Part shown: positions 9,764-47,209 of the stretch, in pieces | Position numbering within the stretch: the first letter of the stretch is position 1 | How the letters are laid out: every line of letters begins with the position of its first letter | DNA from: Kineosporia babensis | GTDB taxonomy: Bacteria; Actinomycetota; Actinomycetes; Actinomycetales; Kineosporiaceae | DNA: 64,000 nt | Direction of reading: 5' to 3' | Assembly (NCBI RefSeq): GCF_021129305.1 | Contig: NZ_JAJOMB010000004.1 | Span: forward strand, 310,001-374,000 | The notes under the pieces: model-generated | What the model was told of the DNA's origin: nothing | Databases searched by the model: none | What the model saw: only the letters and a program-made list of their open reading frames with translations | Made by a program: the position numbers and the translations under genes

Positions 9764-9775
9764 AAGCCGTTTAAG

Positions 9776-9818
9776 CAGAGGACGGGGTGGGCACCTTGGG
9801 TGCCCACCCCGTCCTCTG
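9776..9818 (+). terminator. Terminator after pgl; left copy of a duplicated hairpin flanking the TIR/NACHT module
   Basis: AGAGGACGGGGTGGGCAC (9777-9794) pairs perfectly with GTGCCCACCCCGTCCTCT (9800-9817) around a short loop. Almost the same 43-base sequence recurs at 14047-14089, beyond the NACHT gene, with about five mismatches. So the two-gene module sits between two terminator copies. Confidence 0.85.
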
Positions 9819-9904
9819 TGTTTGCCTGGTTTAAGTGCGGCATTGCCCCACCAACTGGCCAGTAGAGCCATTCCCGGCGCTGCGTGAAAGTAACGTGAGC
9901 GTCC

Positions 9905-10447
9905 GTGAGCGACAAGCCGATCGAACTGTTCGTCAGCTGGTCCCGGAAGGACAAGCTGCTGAAGAACGCACTGATCGGGTCCCTCGAAGACCACCTGGGC
10001 ATCATCGAGGGCCTGACCTTTTCCTTGTGGCAGGACGTCGAGCTGGCCGTCGGCCTGGACTGGGACGAACAACTGCAGCAGCGCCTGGCCGGCTGCGACT
10101 ACGGCCTACTGCTGCTCAGCCCGTCGTTCTTCAGCAGCGTGTACATCCGGGAACGGGAGCTGTCCTGGTTCACCGGGACCACTGGTAAGCCCATGCTGCC
10201 CGTGATGCTTCGGCAGGTCCCGCTCGACGGGTCTCGCCGGACCGGTGGCGTGGAGCTGCGGCAGATCTTTCATGATCCCCTGCACCACAGGGCTTTCGCA
10301 GACGCGCGTGATCGTGACGCTTTCGCTCGGGAGCTCGCCGAGGCCATCCGACGGCGGGTGTTGTCGGACCGGGCGGGCAGTCCGCCGACTTGGGGCGTGA
10401 TGTCCTGGCCGACCGGTGACAGCCCCTCGGAAGCTGCGGGCGCATGA
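9905..10447 (+). CDS. Stand-alone TIR-domain protein, probable immune NADase effector
   Basis: 180-residue protein whose first 140 residues form a TIR domain. LFVSWSRKD (8-16) is the first strand and box 1. FSLWQDVELAVGLDWDEQL (39-57) corresponds to the BB-loop region, CDYGLLLLSPSFFSSVYI (64-81) is the next strand, and REREL (82-86) contains Glu85 at the usual position of the catalytic NAD+-cleaving glutamate. No signal peptide or membrane helix. Start is GTG 9905; no strong ribosome binding site is visible. Its stop overlaps the following NACHT gene as ATGA, so the two are translated together. I infer an abortive-infection type effector that degrades NAD+ or makes a signalling nucleotide. 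The TIR assignment is firm; catalysis and role are inference. Confidence 0.82.
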   Translation: MSDKPIELFVSWSRKDKLLKNALIGSLEDHLGIIEGLTFSLWQDVELAVGLDWDEQLQQRLAGCDYGLLLLSPSFFSSVYIRERELSWFTGTTGKPMLPVMLRQVPLDGSRRTGGVELRQIFHDPLHHRAFADARDRDAFARELAEAIRRRVLSDRAGSPPTWGVMSWPTGDSPSEAAGA

Positions 10448-13400
10448 GGCCGATGAACAGTGCCGCGGTGCTCGCAGCCCGTGACCGCCTGGTCGAGGAG
10501 CTGACCGGGCTGCAGTACCAGCGGATCACCAAGCTGGTGGAGCTGATCGGCGATGATGGCCGGATCCGGCTGGATCTCGCGCTGGAAGCCGCTACCAGGC
10601 CCGGGGCGCTGCAGAAGCGTCAGGACGCGTTCCGTCAGTTTCGCCACGACCTGGCCGAGCGCACCGGCGGTCGTCTGCAGGTTGAGGTCGATGGCGACAA
10701 GGGGGCACCGACAGCGCGCTGGTGCTGGTTCGAGGGCGAGGACCGGACGGTCGCCGAACTCGGTGCCATGTCGGCCCAAGGCGCAGGACGCCGGCCGGAT
10801 GCGGTCACGGTACCGGCGGCTGCGGTCGAGGTGCTGCAGCGGCCCTACAACGTTTTCCTCAGCACCGGTGGTGAACCCGGCACGCCCCTGTACCGCGATG
10901 AGGCTGCCCTGCTGGAGTTGCTCCGTGAACGCTTCGACCCAGAGGACGTTCGGATCCAGTGGATCGGCGACGTCCAGTTGGGCACGGAGTTGAGCACCGA
11001 CCTGCGGGACCGGGCGGACCTTGTGGTCTGCCTGATCAGCGCCAGCTATCTGCAGCGCAACCACGCAGATTGCCTCTGGGGATCCGAAAACCCCCATCGC
11101 CGAATGCTCTTGGCCTTCGCCCAGCTGGTAGCCGGAGCCAGACTGCCGAGCGAACTGCCGATGGCCGAGGTGCACCTTTCCGCGAAGCCGTTCAAGTCCC
11201 GCGCCCGGGCTCAGGACAAGGAAAGCTACGCCAACGACTGCGTGCCATTGATCCGCTCGCACCTTACCCGGCTCTCGTCTCCCGGTGAGCCGATCACACC
11301 GGCCAAGTCCAGGGACGAGCGCTTTCGCGAGTTCTCGCTGCAACGGGCCCTCTCCCGGGGGAAACACCACCTGGTTCTCCCTGAGGCCGTCCAGTCCGAC
11401 TTCGATCGGGCTGCTCTCAGCGCGACCAGCCCCACGCGCCGTCTGGGTGAGAGCGAGCCGGCTGTGGAGCGGCTGGTGCGCTGGGCCTTGGACAGGACCG
11501 GGCCAGCGATGTGCGCGTTGCTCGGCGACGTAGGCATCGGCAAGACCACCACCACCAAACTCCTCACCGAAGAACTGCTGCGCCGGCACCAGACAGACGC
11601 CGACATCCCGTTGCCAATCTTGTTCGACCTTCGTGATCTGCCGCAGCAGACCCTCACCGATGAAGGGATTTCGCTGCGGCCGATCCTCGCCGCGTTGCTC
11701 AAGGCCAATGACCGTCGCGGAACCCTGCCGTCCGTGGACGACCTGCTCGACCTGGTCGATTCCGGCCGCGCCCTGCTGATCTTCGACGGTCTGGACGAAG
11801 TCATCGTCCGGATGCCGCCCGCCGATGCCCAGCGCTTCAGCCGAGTGCTCTGGCGGGCGGCCGAACCCACCTTCGAGGCGGCAGGACCGGTTCCGGCTCC
11901 GACCAGGCCACCGCGCAGCAAGCTCTTGCTCAGTTGTCGCACGCACTACTTCCGCTCGATCCGCGACGAGGTCAACCATTTCACCGGCCAGCAGCGTGAG
12001 AACAACCGTGGAGATTCGTATCTCGTCCTGCTGATGCAGCCCTTCGGCGACGAACAGATCCGCGAGTACCTGGCGAACAACGTGCCCGGCGTGGATGTGG
12101 AGCGGATGCTGGAGGTACTCAACGAGGTCCACAACCTGCGCGAGATCGCTGAGCGTCCGATGACTCTCACCCTGATCGCCGGGCAGCTCGAACGGATCGA
12201 GCACGCCAAGCTGACCGGCACCACGGTGTACGGGGCCGATCTGTACGCCGGGTTCGTGCAGGACTGGCTGGAGCGTGATGAGGGCAAGCACAGCTTGCTT
12301 CCGCAGCACAAGCAGGTATTGATGGAGCACCTGGCGGCAACACTCTGGCGCCAAGGTCTGAACTCGTGGTCAGCCGATCAGGTGGAGCAGTGGCTCCTGG
12401 AGTTCCTGGCTGACCGCCCCGACCTGCGGGTGCACTATGCCCAGCCGCTGCCCGATCTGTGGAAGGAAGATCTTCGTACCGCCACTTTTCTGGTGCGCAG
12501 TGACGACGACACCTTCCGCTTCGCCCACACCTCCCTTCGCGAGTTCTTCCTGGCCCGATACCTGCGCTCGGCCCTGGGCGGGCCCGGATCGCCGCAGGAT
12601 AGGGCCCTCGCCTGGGACCTGCCGGTGCCGAGTGCTGAAACCCTGGACTTCTTAGGGCAAATGATGGCTGGACTGCCTGATGCCGAACGTTCGGACCATC
12701 ATCTGAATAGCCTGACCGCGATCGCCCGCTCCGGCCGCGCTGGTGCTGCTTGTTTAGCGCTGGCCTATGCGATGCAGGCGCAGGGCACCTTGCCCAGCCC
12801 GGATCTGAGCGGAGCCGACTTCACCGACGCCCAGTTGAAGGGCTGGAAGATTCGATCGAAAGGCGGTGAACGCATGGATCTTCGCGGGGCCAAGTTCACC
12901 GACGCCGACCTGTCGGACGTCACCTTCACCGACCTGGAGTTGACCGGCGCGCATTTCTCGCGGGCCGACCTCACCCGGGCCGGGTTTCACACCTGCAACC
13001 TCGATGCGGCCGACTTCGACCAATCCTCTTTCGTGGGAACAGTTCTGCGCAGGTGCTCGGTGGCGGGGATTCGGTGGGAACAGGTTCACGCATACCGAGC
13101 GCAAGATCTGTTCTGTACGCCGCCGGTGCCGACGCAGTTCGAGGGCTGGCGCAGGGCTCCTGCGGCTAGTGGGAGCCCGACAAGCGGGCTTCAACTTCTC
13201 ACCGGCCACATCAGCGCCGTCACGGCCGTCGCCTACCACCCCACCGGCACCCACCTCGCCACTACCAGCCACGACCAGACCACCCGCATCTGGGACGCCA
13301 CCACCGGCCAGCACCTGCACACCCTCACCGGCCACACCAACACCGTCACGGCCGTCGCCTACCACCCCACCGGCACCCACCTCGCCACCACCAGCTGGGA

Positions 13401-14016
13401 CCAGACCACCCGCATCTGGGACGCCACCACCGGCCAGCACCTGCACACCCTCACCGGCCACACCGACGCTGTCACGGCCGTCGCCTACAACCCCACAGGA
13501 ACCCACCTCGCCACCACCAGCTGGGACGGCACCATCCGGATCTGGGACGCCACCACCGGCCAGCACCTGCACACCCTTGCCGACCACACGGACTGGGTCA
13601 GGGCCCTTACCTACAACCCCATAGGAACCCACCTCGCCACCACCAGCGACGACGGCACCATCCGGATCTGGGACGCCACCACCGGCCAGCACCTGCACAC
13701 CCTCACCGGCCACACCAGCTGGGTCACGGCCGTCGCCTACCACCCCACCGGCACCCACCTCGCCACCACCAGCGACGACGGAAGCATCCGCAACCGCAAC
13801 CTCGCCGACCAAACCAGCCTCGTCATCCAAACCCTGAACAACAGCGAATACACCGTGTGGCAAGAACACACCGAGCACGAGTCTCCCGTCTCGGTCCTCG
13901 TCCACGCCTCTCCCGGAGCTTGGCAATGGCTGGGTTATCCCACGGTGATTGACGGCCAGATCGACCGTCTCCCCGCTGAATCCTTCGGCCCTTTACCAAC
14001 TCTCGTCGATGAGTAA
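10444..14016 (+). CDS. NLR-like STAND protein: N-terminal domain, TIR-like domain, NACHT NTPase, pentapeptide repeats, WD40 repeats
   Basis: 1190 residues. Residues 1-105 form a helical region of unknown fold, possibly an effector-associated adaptor. Residues about 135-240 resemble a second TIR domain (YNVFLSTGG, DLVVCLISASYLQ), but no glutamate sits clearly in the catalytic slot. The NACHT NTPase follows, with Walker A GDVGIGKTTTT at 361-371 (Lys367) and Walker B LLIFDGLDEV (Asp448), and later FRFAHTSLREFFLARYL, typical of the end of NACHT helical domains. Residues about 785-880 are pentapeptide repeats (DLSGADF, DLRGAKF, DLTRAGF). From 921 there are five WD40 repeats of 42 residues, then a 70-residue tail. 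The architecture is that of an intracellular sensor that oligomerises on ligand recognition. The first ATG overlaps the TIR gene stop; an in-frame ATG at 10453 is an alternative. Confidence 0.85.
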   Translation: MRPMNSAAVLAARDRLVEELTGLQYQRITKLVELIGDDGRIRLDLALEAATRPGALQKRQDAFRQFRHDLAERTGGRLQVEVDGDKGAPTARWCWFEGEDRTVAELGAMSAQGAGRRPDAVTVPAAAVEVLQRPYNVFLSTGGEPGTPLYRDEAALLELLRERFDPEDVRIQWIGDVQLGTELSTDLRDRADLVVCLISASYLQRNHADCLWGSENPHRRMLLAFAQLVAGARLPSELPMAEVHLSAKPFKSRARAQDKESYANDCVPLIRSHLTRLSSPGEPITPAKSRDERFREFSLQRALSRGKHHLVLPEAVQSDFDRAALSATSPTRRLGESEPAVERLVRWALDRTGPAMCALLGDVGIGKTTTTKLLTEELLRRHQTDADIPLPILFDLRDLPQQTLTDEGISLRPILAALLKANDRRGTLPSVDDLLDLVDSGRALLIFDGLDEVIVRMPPADAQRFSRVLWRAAEPTFEAAGPVPAPTRPPRSKLLLSCRTHYFRSIRDEVNHFTGQQRENNRGDSYLVLLMQPFGDEQIREYLANNVPGVDVERMLEVLNEVHNLREIAERPMTLTLIAGQLERIEHAKLTGTTVYGADLYAGFVQDWLERDEGKHSLLPQHKQVLMEHLAATLWRQGLNSWSADQVEQWLLEFLADRPDLRVHYAQPLPDLWKEDLRTATFLVRSDDDTFRFAHTSLREFFLARYLRSALGGPGSPQDRALAWDLPVPSAETLDFLGQMMAGLPDAERSDHHLNSLTAIARSGRAGAACLALAYAMQAQGTLPSPDLSGADFTDAQLKGWKIRSKGGERMDLRGAKFTDADLSDVTFTDLELTGAHFSRADLTRAGFHTCNLDAADFDQSSFVGTVLRRCSVAGIRWEQVHAYRAQDLFCTPPVPTQFEGWRRAPAASGSPTSGLQLLTGHISAVTAVAYHPTGTHLATTSHDQTTRIWDATTGQHLHTLTGHTNTVTAVAYHPTGTHLATTSWDQTTRIWDATTGQHLHTLTGHTDAVTAVAYNPTGTHLATTSWDGTIRIWDATTGQHLHTLADHTDWVRALTYNPIGTHLATTSDDGTIRIWDATTGQHLHTLTGHTSWVTAVAYHPTGTHLATTSDDGSIRNRNLADQTSLVIQTLNNSEYTVWQEHTEHESPVSVLVHASPGAWQWLGYPTVIDGQIDRLPAESFGPLPTLVDE
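13204..13794 (+). repeat. Five tandem 126-bp WD40-coding repeats, nearly identical
   Basis: Units start at 13204, 13330, 13456, 13582 and 13708, each 42 codons; the fifth departs from the pattern after about 87 bases. Units 1 and 2 differ at only about seven of 126 bases. Changes cluster in codons 3-5, 12, 23, 25 and 27 of the unit, while blocks such as PTGTHLATTS and IWDATTGQHLHTL are constant even at silent positions. This indicates recent amplification or gene conversion with selected variation at few positions. Confidence 0.92.
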
Positions 14017-14046
14017 CTGCTCGACCGCATTCATAGGCCGCCCAAA

Positions 14047-14089
14047 CAGAGGACGGGGTGGACACCTAAGGTGCCCACCCCGCCCTCTG
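14047..14089. terminator. Right copy of the duplicated terminator hairpin
   Basis: Sequence CAGAGGACGGGGTGG followed by CACC and the complementary half ends at 14089. It copies the hairpin after pgl with compensating and non-compensating changes. It lies between the NACHT gene and the convergent quinone oxidoreductase and may work in both directions. Confidence 0.8.
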
Positions 14090-44603: not shown

Positions 44604-47072
44604 TCAGGCGGCTCGTTCGCAGCGGGGCCGATAGTCGTTGTCCGGCAGGATGATTTTCCATTCGTGTTCGGTGAGTGATCGCGAGGCCCGCCGGCACAGG
44701 TGCGGCAGCCACTTCTCGCGGTCCAGGTTCCAAAGGCGGACCGTTGCATCATCACCGCCGGTGAAGGCGGTACGGGTGGCCGGGTCGACGGCGACCGCGT
44801 CCGCCCAGCCCGTGTGCCCCTTCATCGGCGCGCCGACCAGGGCGCGGTTCCTGACGTCCCACAGGCGGATCAGACCATCACCGTTCGTGGCGACCACGTG
44901 ATCGGCGCCGGCGAAAGCCACATCGTCGACCGGAGCGTCGTCGTTGTCGAGTTCCGCCACCAGAGCACGGTTCCCGACGTTCCAGACCCGCACGGTCCCG
45001 TCCTGGCCGGAAGCAGCCAGCCGCGAACCGTCGGGAGAGAAGGCCACTCCCCAGACCCGGACCCCCGGCTTGTCGAGCAGGACCGGACCCAACGGTGCGT
45101 GCGAGTTGACGTCCCACAACCGTACGGTGCCGTCGTTGCCGGAACTGGCCAGAACGGCGCCGTCGGGGCTGAACGCCACGTCCTGCACCGGTTCACCGTG
45201 GCCCGTCAAGGTCGCGGTCTGCTCACCGGAGGACAGATTCCAGAGCCGGATCAGGTGGTCGTCACCGGCAGTGGCCAGGGTCTGCCCATCGCGCGCCAGG
45301 CTGATGCCCCAGACCTTCGCCGTCTTTCCGGGGGTGGTCATCCGTTGCCGCACAGCGTGGGTCTGGGCGTCCAGCACCTTCAGGACACCGTTCTCGTGCG
45401 CCACCACGAGCACCTGGTCCTGCCGATCCAGGGCCAGGCCGGTGACCGGGCTCTTCTCGTCGTCGAGCACCGGATCCCCCAGTCGTTCCCGGCTGGCGAG
45501 GTCCCAGAAAAGAAGCTTGCCAGCGGCATCGCCGGAGATCAGAGTCCGCCGGTCAGAGCTGAGGACGATGGCGTTCACCGGTGCCCGATGGCCGATCAGC
45601 GGCTGCCCGAGAACCTGTTCCGAGGAGGCGGCCCAGGACGTGAGGACCGGCTCGCTCCCGGACGAGGTCCAGACCTGTTCTCCCTGCTCGGCGAAGACCA
45701 CGGCATTCACCGGACCGGCCAGGTCACCCAGGCGCTCGGCCGAAACCTGGGGCTGGTCCAGACGCCAGAGCACGGCCGAGCGGTCCTGCGCGCCGCTCAC
45801 GAGCTGCTTGCCTTCCGGCTCGAAGGCCAGCGCAGTGACCGCGCCGGTGTGCTGTCCGTCGAGGTTCCGAAGGTGCTCGAGGCCCTCGACCTGCCACAGG
45901 TCGAGGTCGTTGGCGGTGGTCGCAGCCGCGAAGCTCTGGCCGTCCGGAGCGAAGGCGATCACGCTCACCGCGGCGTAGTAGCGCGGCTGGGTGAACTCGC
46001 CGACCAGCCCTCCGTCGTCAGCCTGCCAGTTCGCGGTGTCCCACAACCGCAGCATCCCGTTGGGCGCACCGCTGACCAGCCGGTCACCCTCGGGACTGGC
46101 GCCCAGGGCAGTGATTCCCTTGGACTGCGTGGGCATGTCACCGATCCGCTCCAGACCGCCCGGACCCAACTGCCAGACGGTGAGCTTGCCGTCCACACCA
46201 CCGCCGACCATCGTGTTGTCGTCGACCACGGCGGCCAGCGAGACGATCTCGTCGAGCCCCTGCCCCGACGCCTCGCCGATCAACTCCAGATTCTTGGCGT
46301 CCCACAGGCGCAGGACCCGGTCGGCTCCGGCGCTGAGCAGCCAGGTGCCGTCCCGGCTGAAGGCCAGGGCGCTCACCCTCCCGTCGTGTGCGCCCAGGTG
46401 CGTGGCGATCGGCGGATCCTGCTGCGAATCCGTCTTGCGCACCTGAAGGCCGCCGGCCGCGTCGGCAGAGGCCACGAACCGGCCGCCGGGAGACGGGACC
46501 AGCGCGGTCAGCGGATGGTTGGTGGCGACGGTCGAGACCTTGTGCAGGGGCGCACCCAGAGCGTCCATGGCAACCGCGACGCTTCGGGAATTCTCCTGCA
46601 GCGCAAGAGCATCCGCAGCCACCGACTGGGCCAGAGCAGGATCGCTGGCCAGCCGCAGCGCTGCGTCGGTGGAGAGCGCGGCCGCACCGGCGACCTGGCG
46701 CAGGTGCCCGTTCTGATCGGCCTTCCACCAGCCGAACCCGGAAGTGACGAGGGCAATCGCCAACAGCCCGAAGATCATCTTCCAGGGCCTACCGCCCTGC
46801 GAAACGCCTCGGACAGAGGGTATTCCACCGAAACGGCCAGACCTGCTGCGGCGTTCGGAGCGCTTCAGCAAGAACGGGGCAAGCGCCTGGTAGAGCGCCA
46901 CCGACGTCGCCGCCCAGCTCACCAGAAGAGACACGACACCGATCAACTGATCAGCCACGTCGCGCCGGACCAGGACGAGGCAGAGCATCGCGATGGACAC
47001 CACCGCCGACCCGACAGTCCAAATGATGGCCAGCCGATGGTGTTCAAGCTCGGCGGAATCCCCCGTCACCAC
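44604..47072 (-). CDS. Membrane-anchored protein with two WD40 propellers and STAND-like C-terminus, no NTPase
   Basis: 822 residues from GTG 47072 (GGGGAGG upstream; GTG 47069 equally possible). Three hydrophobic helices lie at the N-terminus: LAIIWTVGSAVVSIAMLCLV, LIGVVSLLVSWAATSVALYQ, and after a basic loop MIFGLLAIALVTSGFGWW. A linker (AAALSTDAALRLASDPALAQ) is of the kind that precedes WD40 propellers in STAND proteins. I count about 14 WD40 repeats, enough for two seven-bladed propellers. The end, HLCRRASRSLTEHEWKIILP and a final Cys, is the tail common to bacterial STAND-WD40 proteins. The NTPase and effector are absent. Possible outer sensor or scaffold. Confidence 0.8.
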   Translation of the reverse strand: MVTGDSAELEHHRLAIIWTVGSAVVSIAMLCLVLVRRDVADQLIGVVSLLVSWAATSVALYQALAPFLLKRSERRSRSGRFGGIPSVRGVSQGGRPWKMIFGLLAIALVTSGFGWWKADQNGHLRQVAGAAALSTDAALRLASDPALAQSVAADALALQENSRSVAVAMDALGAPLHKVSTVATNHPLTALVPSPGGRFVASADAAGGLQVRKTDSQQDPPIATHLGAHDGRVSALAFSRDGTWLLSAGADRVLRLWDAKNLELIGEASGQGLDEIVSLAAVVDDNTMVGGGVDGKLTVWQLGPGGLERIGDMPTQSKGITALGASPEGDRLVSGAPNGMLRLWDTANWQADDGGLVGEFTQPRYYAAVSVIAFAPDGQSFAAATTANDLDLWQVEGLEHLRNLDGQHTGAVTALAFEPEGKQLVSGAQDRSAVLWRLDQPQVSAERLGDLAGPVNAVVFAEQGEQVWTSSGSEPVLTSWAASSEQVLGQPLIGHRAPVNAIVLSSDRRTLISGDAAGKLLFWDLASRERLGDPVLDDEKSPVTGLALDRQDQVLVVAHENGVLKVLDAQTHAVRQRMTTPGKTAKVWGISLARDGQTLATAGDDHLIRLWNLSSGEQTATLTGHGEPVQDVAFSPDGAVLASSGNDGTVRLWDVNSHAPLGPVLLDKPGVRVWGVAFSPDGSRLAASGQDGTVRVWNVGNRALVAELDNDDAPVDDVAFAGADHVVATNGDGLIRLWDVRNRALVGAPMKGHTGWADAVAVDPATRTAFTGGDDATVRLWNLDREKWLPHLCRRASRSLTEHEWKIILPDNDYRPRCERAA

Positions 47073-47209
47073 GCCCCCTCCCCGCGAGTTGGATGGCGAC
47101 ACTAGCTGTCAAATCAGCGAGAGAAGCACGAAAACTCCAAAAATGGTCCGAACACTCCTGCAACCCGACCCCCAGCCCTCACCTTCCCAAGGAGCAAGCA
47201 CTTGCCCGC

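Follow-up and report, generated by a model that had tools for sequence, protein, structure and literature searches.

The locus lies in a 64,000-nucleotide stretch of a Kineosporia babensis contig (hereafter the window) and consists of two genes on the forward strand, a small one encoding a TIR protein and a large one encoding a STAND protein, which share the tetranucleotide ATGA as the stop of the former and the start of the latter (Table 1). The open reading frames are as given in the preliminary description of this DNA, and the overlap suggests translational coupling of the two genes. On its 5' side the module is preceded by an operon read by eye as pgi-zwf-opcA-pgl, and its 3' neighbour is a convergent oxidoreductase gene. 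The GC content of the module (64-68%) is slightly below that of the operon (about 70-74%). No defence genes were noted near the module in a by-eye survey of window positions 6-18 kb.

Table 1. Features of the TIR-STAND locus (positions within the window)
Feature	Positions	Strand	Details
Hairpin in the spacer from pgl to the module, 20-bp arms without mismatch	9776-9818	.	Terminator-like by position only
Small TIR gene	9905-10447	+	180 aa; GTG start; ORF list, Pfam TIR_2
Codon of E85 of the small TIR	10157-10159	+	Catalytic-type Glu, by alignment
ATGA overlap, 4 nt (TIR stop/STAND start)	10444-10447	+	Junctions compared in relatives too
STAND gene	10444-14016	+	1190 aa; ORF list
NNH6 (NACHT N-terminal helical domain 6, PF22737), residues 7-108	10462-10767	+	Pfam, 68 bits, cut-off 27
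In-chain TIR-like domain (residues about 133-283), catalytic-type Glu lost	10840-11292	+	Model fold search, profile-profile comparison
NACHT NTPase domain, residues 357-544	11512-12075	+	Pfam
Pentapeptide repeats, residues about 789-878	12808-13077	+	Pfam
WD40 array, five 42-aa units from residue 921, 126-bp DNA period	13198-13833	+	Fifth unit diverges at its end
C-terminal tail, common WxWLG...LPAExxGPL pattern	13834-14013	+	Own locus, G073 and G323, by eye
Second hairpin region	14037-14089	.	85% identical to 9766-9818

Based on Pfam matches and structure models, the STAND protein comprises, from N- to C-terminus, NNH6, a degenerate TIR-like domain, a NACHT domain, pentapeptide repeats, WD40 repeats and a 60-residue tail. 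The NACHT, pentapeptide and WD40 parts had been proposed before and each is matched by Pfam, and the N-terminal domain formerly left as unknown belongs to a named family, NNH6; searches of the open-licence literature on the NNH name returned nothing relevant. The NACHT domain displays a Walker A motif around G361-T370 and a Walker B motif (FDGLDE, 447-452), and the motif columns are invariant in 13 aligned rows. With these motifs and C-terminal repeats of the superstructure-forming kind, the protein is assigned by sequence to the NACHT clade (NLR-like) of STAND proteins.

The small protein matched the Pfam TIR_2 model (38.6 bits, cut-off 28, E 1.7e-9), and no adaptor domain was found on it in the Pfam search. 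Of its five structure models the best reached a pLDDT of 80.8 and the other four 54-58; in a fold search with the best model all 50 listed PDB matches were TIR domains or TIR-containing proteins, including the NADases SARM1, AbTir and BtTir and likewise MAL and TLRs, which are adaptor or receptor TIRs. Every one of the 14 rows of the TIR alignment (13 small TIRs plus the TIR of L009, a MAG labelled Proteobacteria) carries E85, which was also seen by eye in five further small TIRs of genome G780, the catalytic-type Glu being retained in 18 of 18 small TIRs of the loci read in the window's phylum. In alignment this residue falls on the Glu of BtTir's EL pair, and presumably it is the catalytic one, equivalent to SARM1 E642. 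The small TIR is a predicted NAD+-cleaving effector. More TIR-like matches, distant from the modules, were observed in G263 and G288 (L052, L053).

The pair recurs in other genera and is for this reason beyond chance, which supports the earlier proposal of a candidate NLR-type two-gene module. Of 296 class genomes searched, 11 gave an NNH6 match at E up to 1e-3, and the small TIR, at E up to 1e-6, was detected in exactly these 11, that of the window included; absences in this search are not absolute, because its first pass scores at most 14 or 11 candidates per genome. For G073, which we take to be Frankia alni ACN14a, a mycelial Frankia, 8 of 13 genomes of the genus and 11 of 35 of the family were positive, two sets that overlap; they added G323 and G327. 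A sample of the phylum gave NNH6 in 5 of 396 genomes at E up to 1e-3, three of them above the cut-off, and added G780. Five divergent TIR plus NNH6-NACHT pairs occur in this single genome (L109-L113).

In the 18 loci read in the phylum (the window's own, ten class relatives, G323, G327 and five of G780) the small TIR gene lies, without exception, directly upstream of the NNH6-NACHT gene, so that the two-gene order is indeed found elsewhere. Picking the start codon closest to a 4-nt overlap, this overlap was obtained at eight junctions (own, G053, G296, G241, G327, L110, L111 and L113) and a 1-nt overlap at another eight (G263, G073, G213, G288, G194, G323, L109 and L112), and at the remaining two (G155 and G255) the start lies 15 nt beyond the TIR stop. 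Trees of 13 TIRs and of the 13 corresponding NACHT parts, rooted with L009, have their main groups in common and differ in inner branching. The modules of G263, G073, G194, G155 and G255 occupy a common site; for G288, G053, G296 and G241, with the G213 locus left out, eight neighbour proteins were tested and each matched its own locus only. In the phylum of the MAG, NNH6 was detected in 7 of 398 genomes (four above the cut-off), and loci L088-L092 were read besides the MAG, L091 and L092 being below the NNH6 cut-off. Matches below the cut-off in G925, G1069 and G338 were left out of the locus reading, and the NNH6 match of L102 (G833) was rejected as an unrelated regulator on by-eye reading.

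The interval 9776-14089 includes one hairpin at either end. A terminator scan of the region returned 1 site versus 2.0 in shuffled sequences, and no promoter. A GAGGACGGGGTGGNCACC-like motif present at 9766-9818 and 14037-14089 is dispersed, with 37 matches in the genome (up to 2 mismatches) versus 1 for the reversed motif; four of the 37 fall in the two flanking hairpins, and the motif forms hairpins at both module ends and at C5:45748-45788. The reading of the two 53-nt hairpin regions (85% alike) as a duplicated insertion site or cassette boundaries was dropped because of this dispersal and of the hairpins seen by eye after pgl in G003 and G004, whose sequence is different. A mobile origin was also rejected, since the small TIR had no match in 72,556 plasmid records and its 33 pattern matches in viral contigs included no relatives. 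Plasmid and phage matches to the N-terminal part of the STAND protein were partial, covering the NACHT-to-pentapeptide or the pentapeptide part. In four of five genus relatives the 8.9-13.2 kb downstream of pgl contained no match to the TIR, the STAND N-terminal part or three genes taken from the downstream side of the module in the window (in the fifth, G005, pgl lies near a contig end), and no match in the genus relatives extended into the NNH6 part.

The WD40 part, suggested previously as a sensing part, is present and probably belongs to a near-identical, hypervariable class. Mean pairwise DNA identity between units is 87-96% across seven arrays; at the amino acid level identity amounts to 88-92% in five of the seven, 83% in G241 and a mean of 81% in the own array (4 units kept). 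For high internal conservation of the units, as in HNWD-like hypervariable WD40 receptors, PMC4986451 gives more than 85% identity over at least 100 aa, and positions 10, 11, 12, 14, 30, 32 and 39 of the Podospora HNWD unit are presented with high dN/dS in PMC12222747. In the register of the GH unit these positions are 3, 4, 5, 7, 23, 25 and 32; the register was set via a HET-E unit and is consistent with the S/W/D/K table row in PMC2873952.

These seven of 42 positions concentrate 52% of the amino acid differences between units, and none of 200,000 random sets of positions was as high. In pairwise, non-independent counts, codon differences were 347 nonsynonymous and 4 synonymous at the seven positions and 219 and 171 elsewhere. 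In an event count across eight arrays the seven positions carried 76 nonsynonymous and 12 synonymous changes and the other positions 56 and 39, giving a pN/pS of 2.13 versus 0.48; the count is a simple one, and the arrays are related and in part truncated. In the own array 6 of 13 variable positions are within the seven, which 195 of 100,000 random sets match, and pN/pS is 1.24 versus 0.41. The most variable positions in the GH register are 4, 23, 5 and 25; position 6 comes 5th and position 8 comes 7th, neither being among the seven, and position 32, which is one of them, comes 16th. These counts exclude units less than 75% identical to the array consensus (the fifth own unit included), cut units, the arrays of G155, G288, G194 and G296 (fewer than two full units) and that of G323. 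By contrast, of three further WD40 loci from the genome of the window only L002 has enough units (five), with a mean identity of 42%.

The pattern might also be explained by neutral drift at tolerant surface positions after a recent amplification of the units, without selection for recognition. Such drift would be in keeping with the general exposure of the seven positions in WD40 propellers, with the ratio of 1.24 in the own array taken alone and with the ranks of positions 6, 8 and 32, but the ratio of 2.13 against 0.48 over eight arrays makes it a rather unlikely explanation.

Regarding array length, the arrays that reach the conserved tail, those of G073 and G323 (the latter counted by hand), contain 14 units each, enough for two 7-blade propellers. 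A contig end or a run of N lies inside the array in 9 of 12 relatives, the exceptions being G073, G263 and G323. According to PMC12222747, WD40 arrays of this kind are not reliably assembled from short reads, and the five-unit array of the own locus may be under-assembled. In L060 of G263, a one-contig genome, the reading frame shifts within the WD40 array, as could result from sequencing error, decay or switching.

The preliminary description had counted two TIRs in the module. This holds for the small protein, whose fold is confirmed by Pfam and the best model; the in-chain copy is unequal, having lost the Glu, and none of its 13 members is matched by the Pfam TIR models. In a profile-profile comparison the in-chain domain aligned with the small TIRs over 118 collinear columns (prob 76, E 2.2e-5). 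The structure model of STAND residues 1-345 was moderate (pLDDT 66), and 9 of the first 10 matches in its fold search were TIR/TLR entries (E 3.3e-3 to 7.6e-3), a beta-glucoside phosphorylase taking rank 4; none of the 1241 matches was under E 1e-3 and the 50 listed included many non-TIR folds, e.g., G proteins. Where the small TIRs carry the Glu, the in-chain domain has a different segment at 13 loci (11 alignment rows plus G323 and G327, by eye). L009 encodes a one-gene form in which NNH6 and NACHT flank an intact TIR (42.8 bits).

That the in-chain domain is some other alpha/beta domain, not derived from a TIR, with the small protein as the only TIR, would account for the lack of Pfam TIR matches in the 13 members, the moderate model and the many non-TIR folds among its listed matches, as well as for the fact that neither the small-TIR profile nor the in-chain profile detects such a domain in the STAND ORFs of G780. 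It is nevertheless unlikely, considering the TIR/TLR entries that dominate the first ten fold matches, the collinear profile match and the true TIR that L009 bears in the same slot. Two of the five copies in G780 have NNH6 and NACHT about 120 residues closer together, as measured on coordinates, so that the domain seems to be absent there while the small TIR is retained; in the other three the slot is of full length, yet the in-chain profile does not match. Because two copies seem to lack the domain and this profile matches no G780 ORF, the in-chain domain is recognised in only 13 of the 18 loci; the small TIR is present in all of them, which points to NNH6 as the more likely, candidate dock for the small TIR.

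An in-frame stop is present in L009 (8372-8440) between the NACHT and pentapeptide parts and may reflect a split gene, decay or an assembly error. In L088-L092 the slot between NNH6 and NACHT is occupied by another, EAL-like domain, scored by Pfam in L092 alone (26.1 bits, below the cut-off of 31.3) and recognised by eye in the other four; no small TIR was found at these loci by tblastn or profile in flanks of 2-6 kb. Together with the TIR of L009, it is as if the slot accepts different effector-type domains.

As anticipated, no described system of this exact form was found in PADLOC, NCBIfam or the open-licence literature. No PADLOC-DB 2.0 system matched the locus, which gave partial TIR matches (19-25 bits), a match to the WD40 part and one match of 11 bits, and in NCBIfam EruA scored 18.8 bits against a cut-off of 1000. 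Among the open-licence papers listed, none described the two-gene form. Thoeris also combines a small TIR gene with an adjoining large gene, and ThsB scored weakly (25.3 bits, 98 of 319 model positions), but the partner here is a NACHT STAND protein matched by no PADLOC model of ThsA at E up to 1, and an identity with Thoeris was dropped on this ground. In bNACHT antiphage proteins an effector part precedes the NACHT NTPase and a sensor part follows it. The present protein likewise has its NACHT between an N-terminal part and a predicted C-terminal sensor part, but its effector would act in trans, a form without a model in PADLOC-DB 2.0.

The closest account found is that of the TIR-STAND/WRAP operons present in cyanobacteria, Nostoc among them (Dunin-Horkawicz 2014, as summarized in PMC9218822), in which a recently amplified 14-blade WD40 domain resides on a STAND protein and the WD40 STAND gene is coupled to a TIR-bearing gene, comparable to the 14 units of G073 and G323. 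There, however, the TIR is on a second STAND protein, whereas in the present pairs it stands alone as a protein of about 150-180 aa, and the STAND protein with the WD40 part bears NNH6, pentapeptide repeats and the dead TIR-like domain. The HNWD proteins of Podospora (HET-D/E/R) have in common with the module a NACHT domain and near-identical 42-aa WD40 units that differ at the same unit positions, suggested to form two 7-blade propellers and mostly not rebuilt from short reads (PMC12222747, PMC2873952 and PMC4986451). They differ in being fungal, in carrying the effector domain in-chain and in responding to HET-C, and they are not known to have a partner gene or pentapeptide repeats. Systems in which the STAND protein and its effector bear paired adaptor domains, such as bDLD3-STAND plus bDLD3-TIR (PMC8195603 and PMC7159879), also have adjoining STAND and TIR genes; in the present pair, by contrast, Pfam found no adaptor domain on the small TIR and the common element is the TIR fold itself, one copy being dead. 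The nearest kin are the cyanobacterial TIR-STAND/WRAP operons, fungal HNWD and bacterial NACHT systems.

Based on the gene structure, the conserved adjacency, the domain content, the Glu kept or lost and the pattern of WD40 variation, we infer, with a probability of about 0.6, that the locus encodes an NLR-like two-protein module for cell suicide or defence in which a separately encoded TIR enzyme is switched on in trans by the STAND protein; binding between TIR and STAND, enzyme activity, trigger and outcome are parts of this inference. Sensing of an invader or a foreign protein would fall to the WD40 propeller, perhaps together with the pentapeptide repeats, and NACHT would respond by exchanging nucleotide and oligomerising. 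The clustered N-termini (NNH6, aided where present by the dead TIR-like domain) might then recruit and align the small TIR, and the assembled TIR would cleave NAD+ or produce a nucleotide signal, leading to cell arrest. Judging by the families concerned (PMC8195603 and PMC7159879), this course from propeller sensing through NACHT oligomerisation, TIR gathering and NAD+ cleavage to cell arrest is the likely one.

The same biochemistry could respond to another trigger and serve to recognise kin, or self as against non-self, or to kill cells during development, and not to exclude phages. HNWD genes serve self/non-self recognition in Podospora, and the WD40 variation follows the HNWD positions; the position of the module on a one-contig genome of 7.5 Mb both in G073, presumably a mycelial Frankia, and in G263, as well as the TIR without plasmid match or confirmed viral relative, would agree with such a role. 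The scattered distribution, with 11 of the 296 class genomes and 8 of the 13 in G073's genus positive, however, suits defence too, and we consider a trigger of this kind improbable. Still less credence is due to the small TIR being a non-enzymatic adaptor, with killing by another route, as MAL and TLRs among its listed fold matches might suggest, given that 18 of 18 small TIRs possess the Glu that aligns with that of BtTir.

Within the preferred reading, an NLR-like switch acting on a separate TIR enzyme, a more specific and tentative version, to which we give somewhat less than an even chance, is that the module is a bacterial counterpart of HNWD. Its propeller would be kept near-identical by unit exchange and diversify at the same positions, acting in trans on a separate TIR; an ancestral in-chain TIR would have been duplicated out, leaving the internal copy as a dead scaffold, sometimes lost, and NNH6 as docking adaptor. 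The module would offer a compact two-gene model of an NLR-like switch that controls a TIR enzyme not carried in its own chain, with natural variants for comparison, in which the in-chain TIR is intact, dead or apparently missing. Should the WD40 pattern be under selection, one and the same strategy of recognition would have arisen in fungi and in presumably mycelial bacteria, and the trigger would be open to direct search.

On the reverse strand of the window, an 832-aa ORF (44604-47102) was read by eye as having hydrophobic N-terminal stretches and divergent WD40 repeats, which differ from the near-identical array of the STAND protein.
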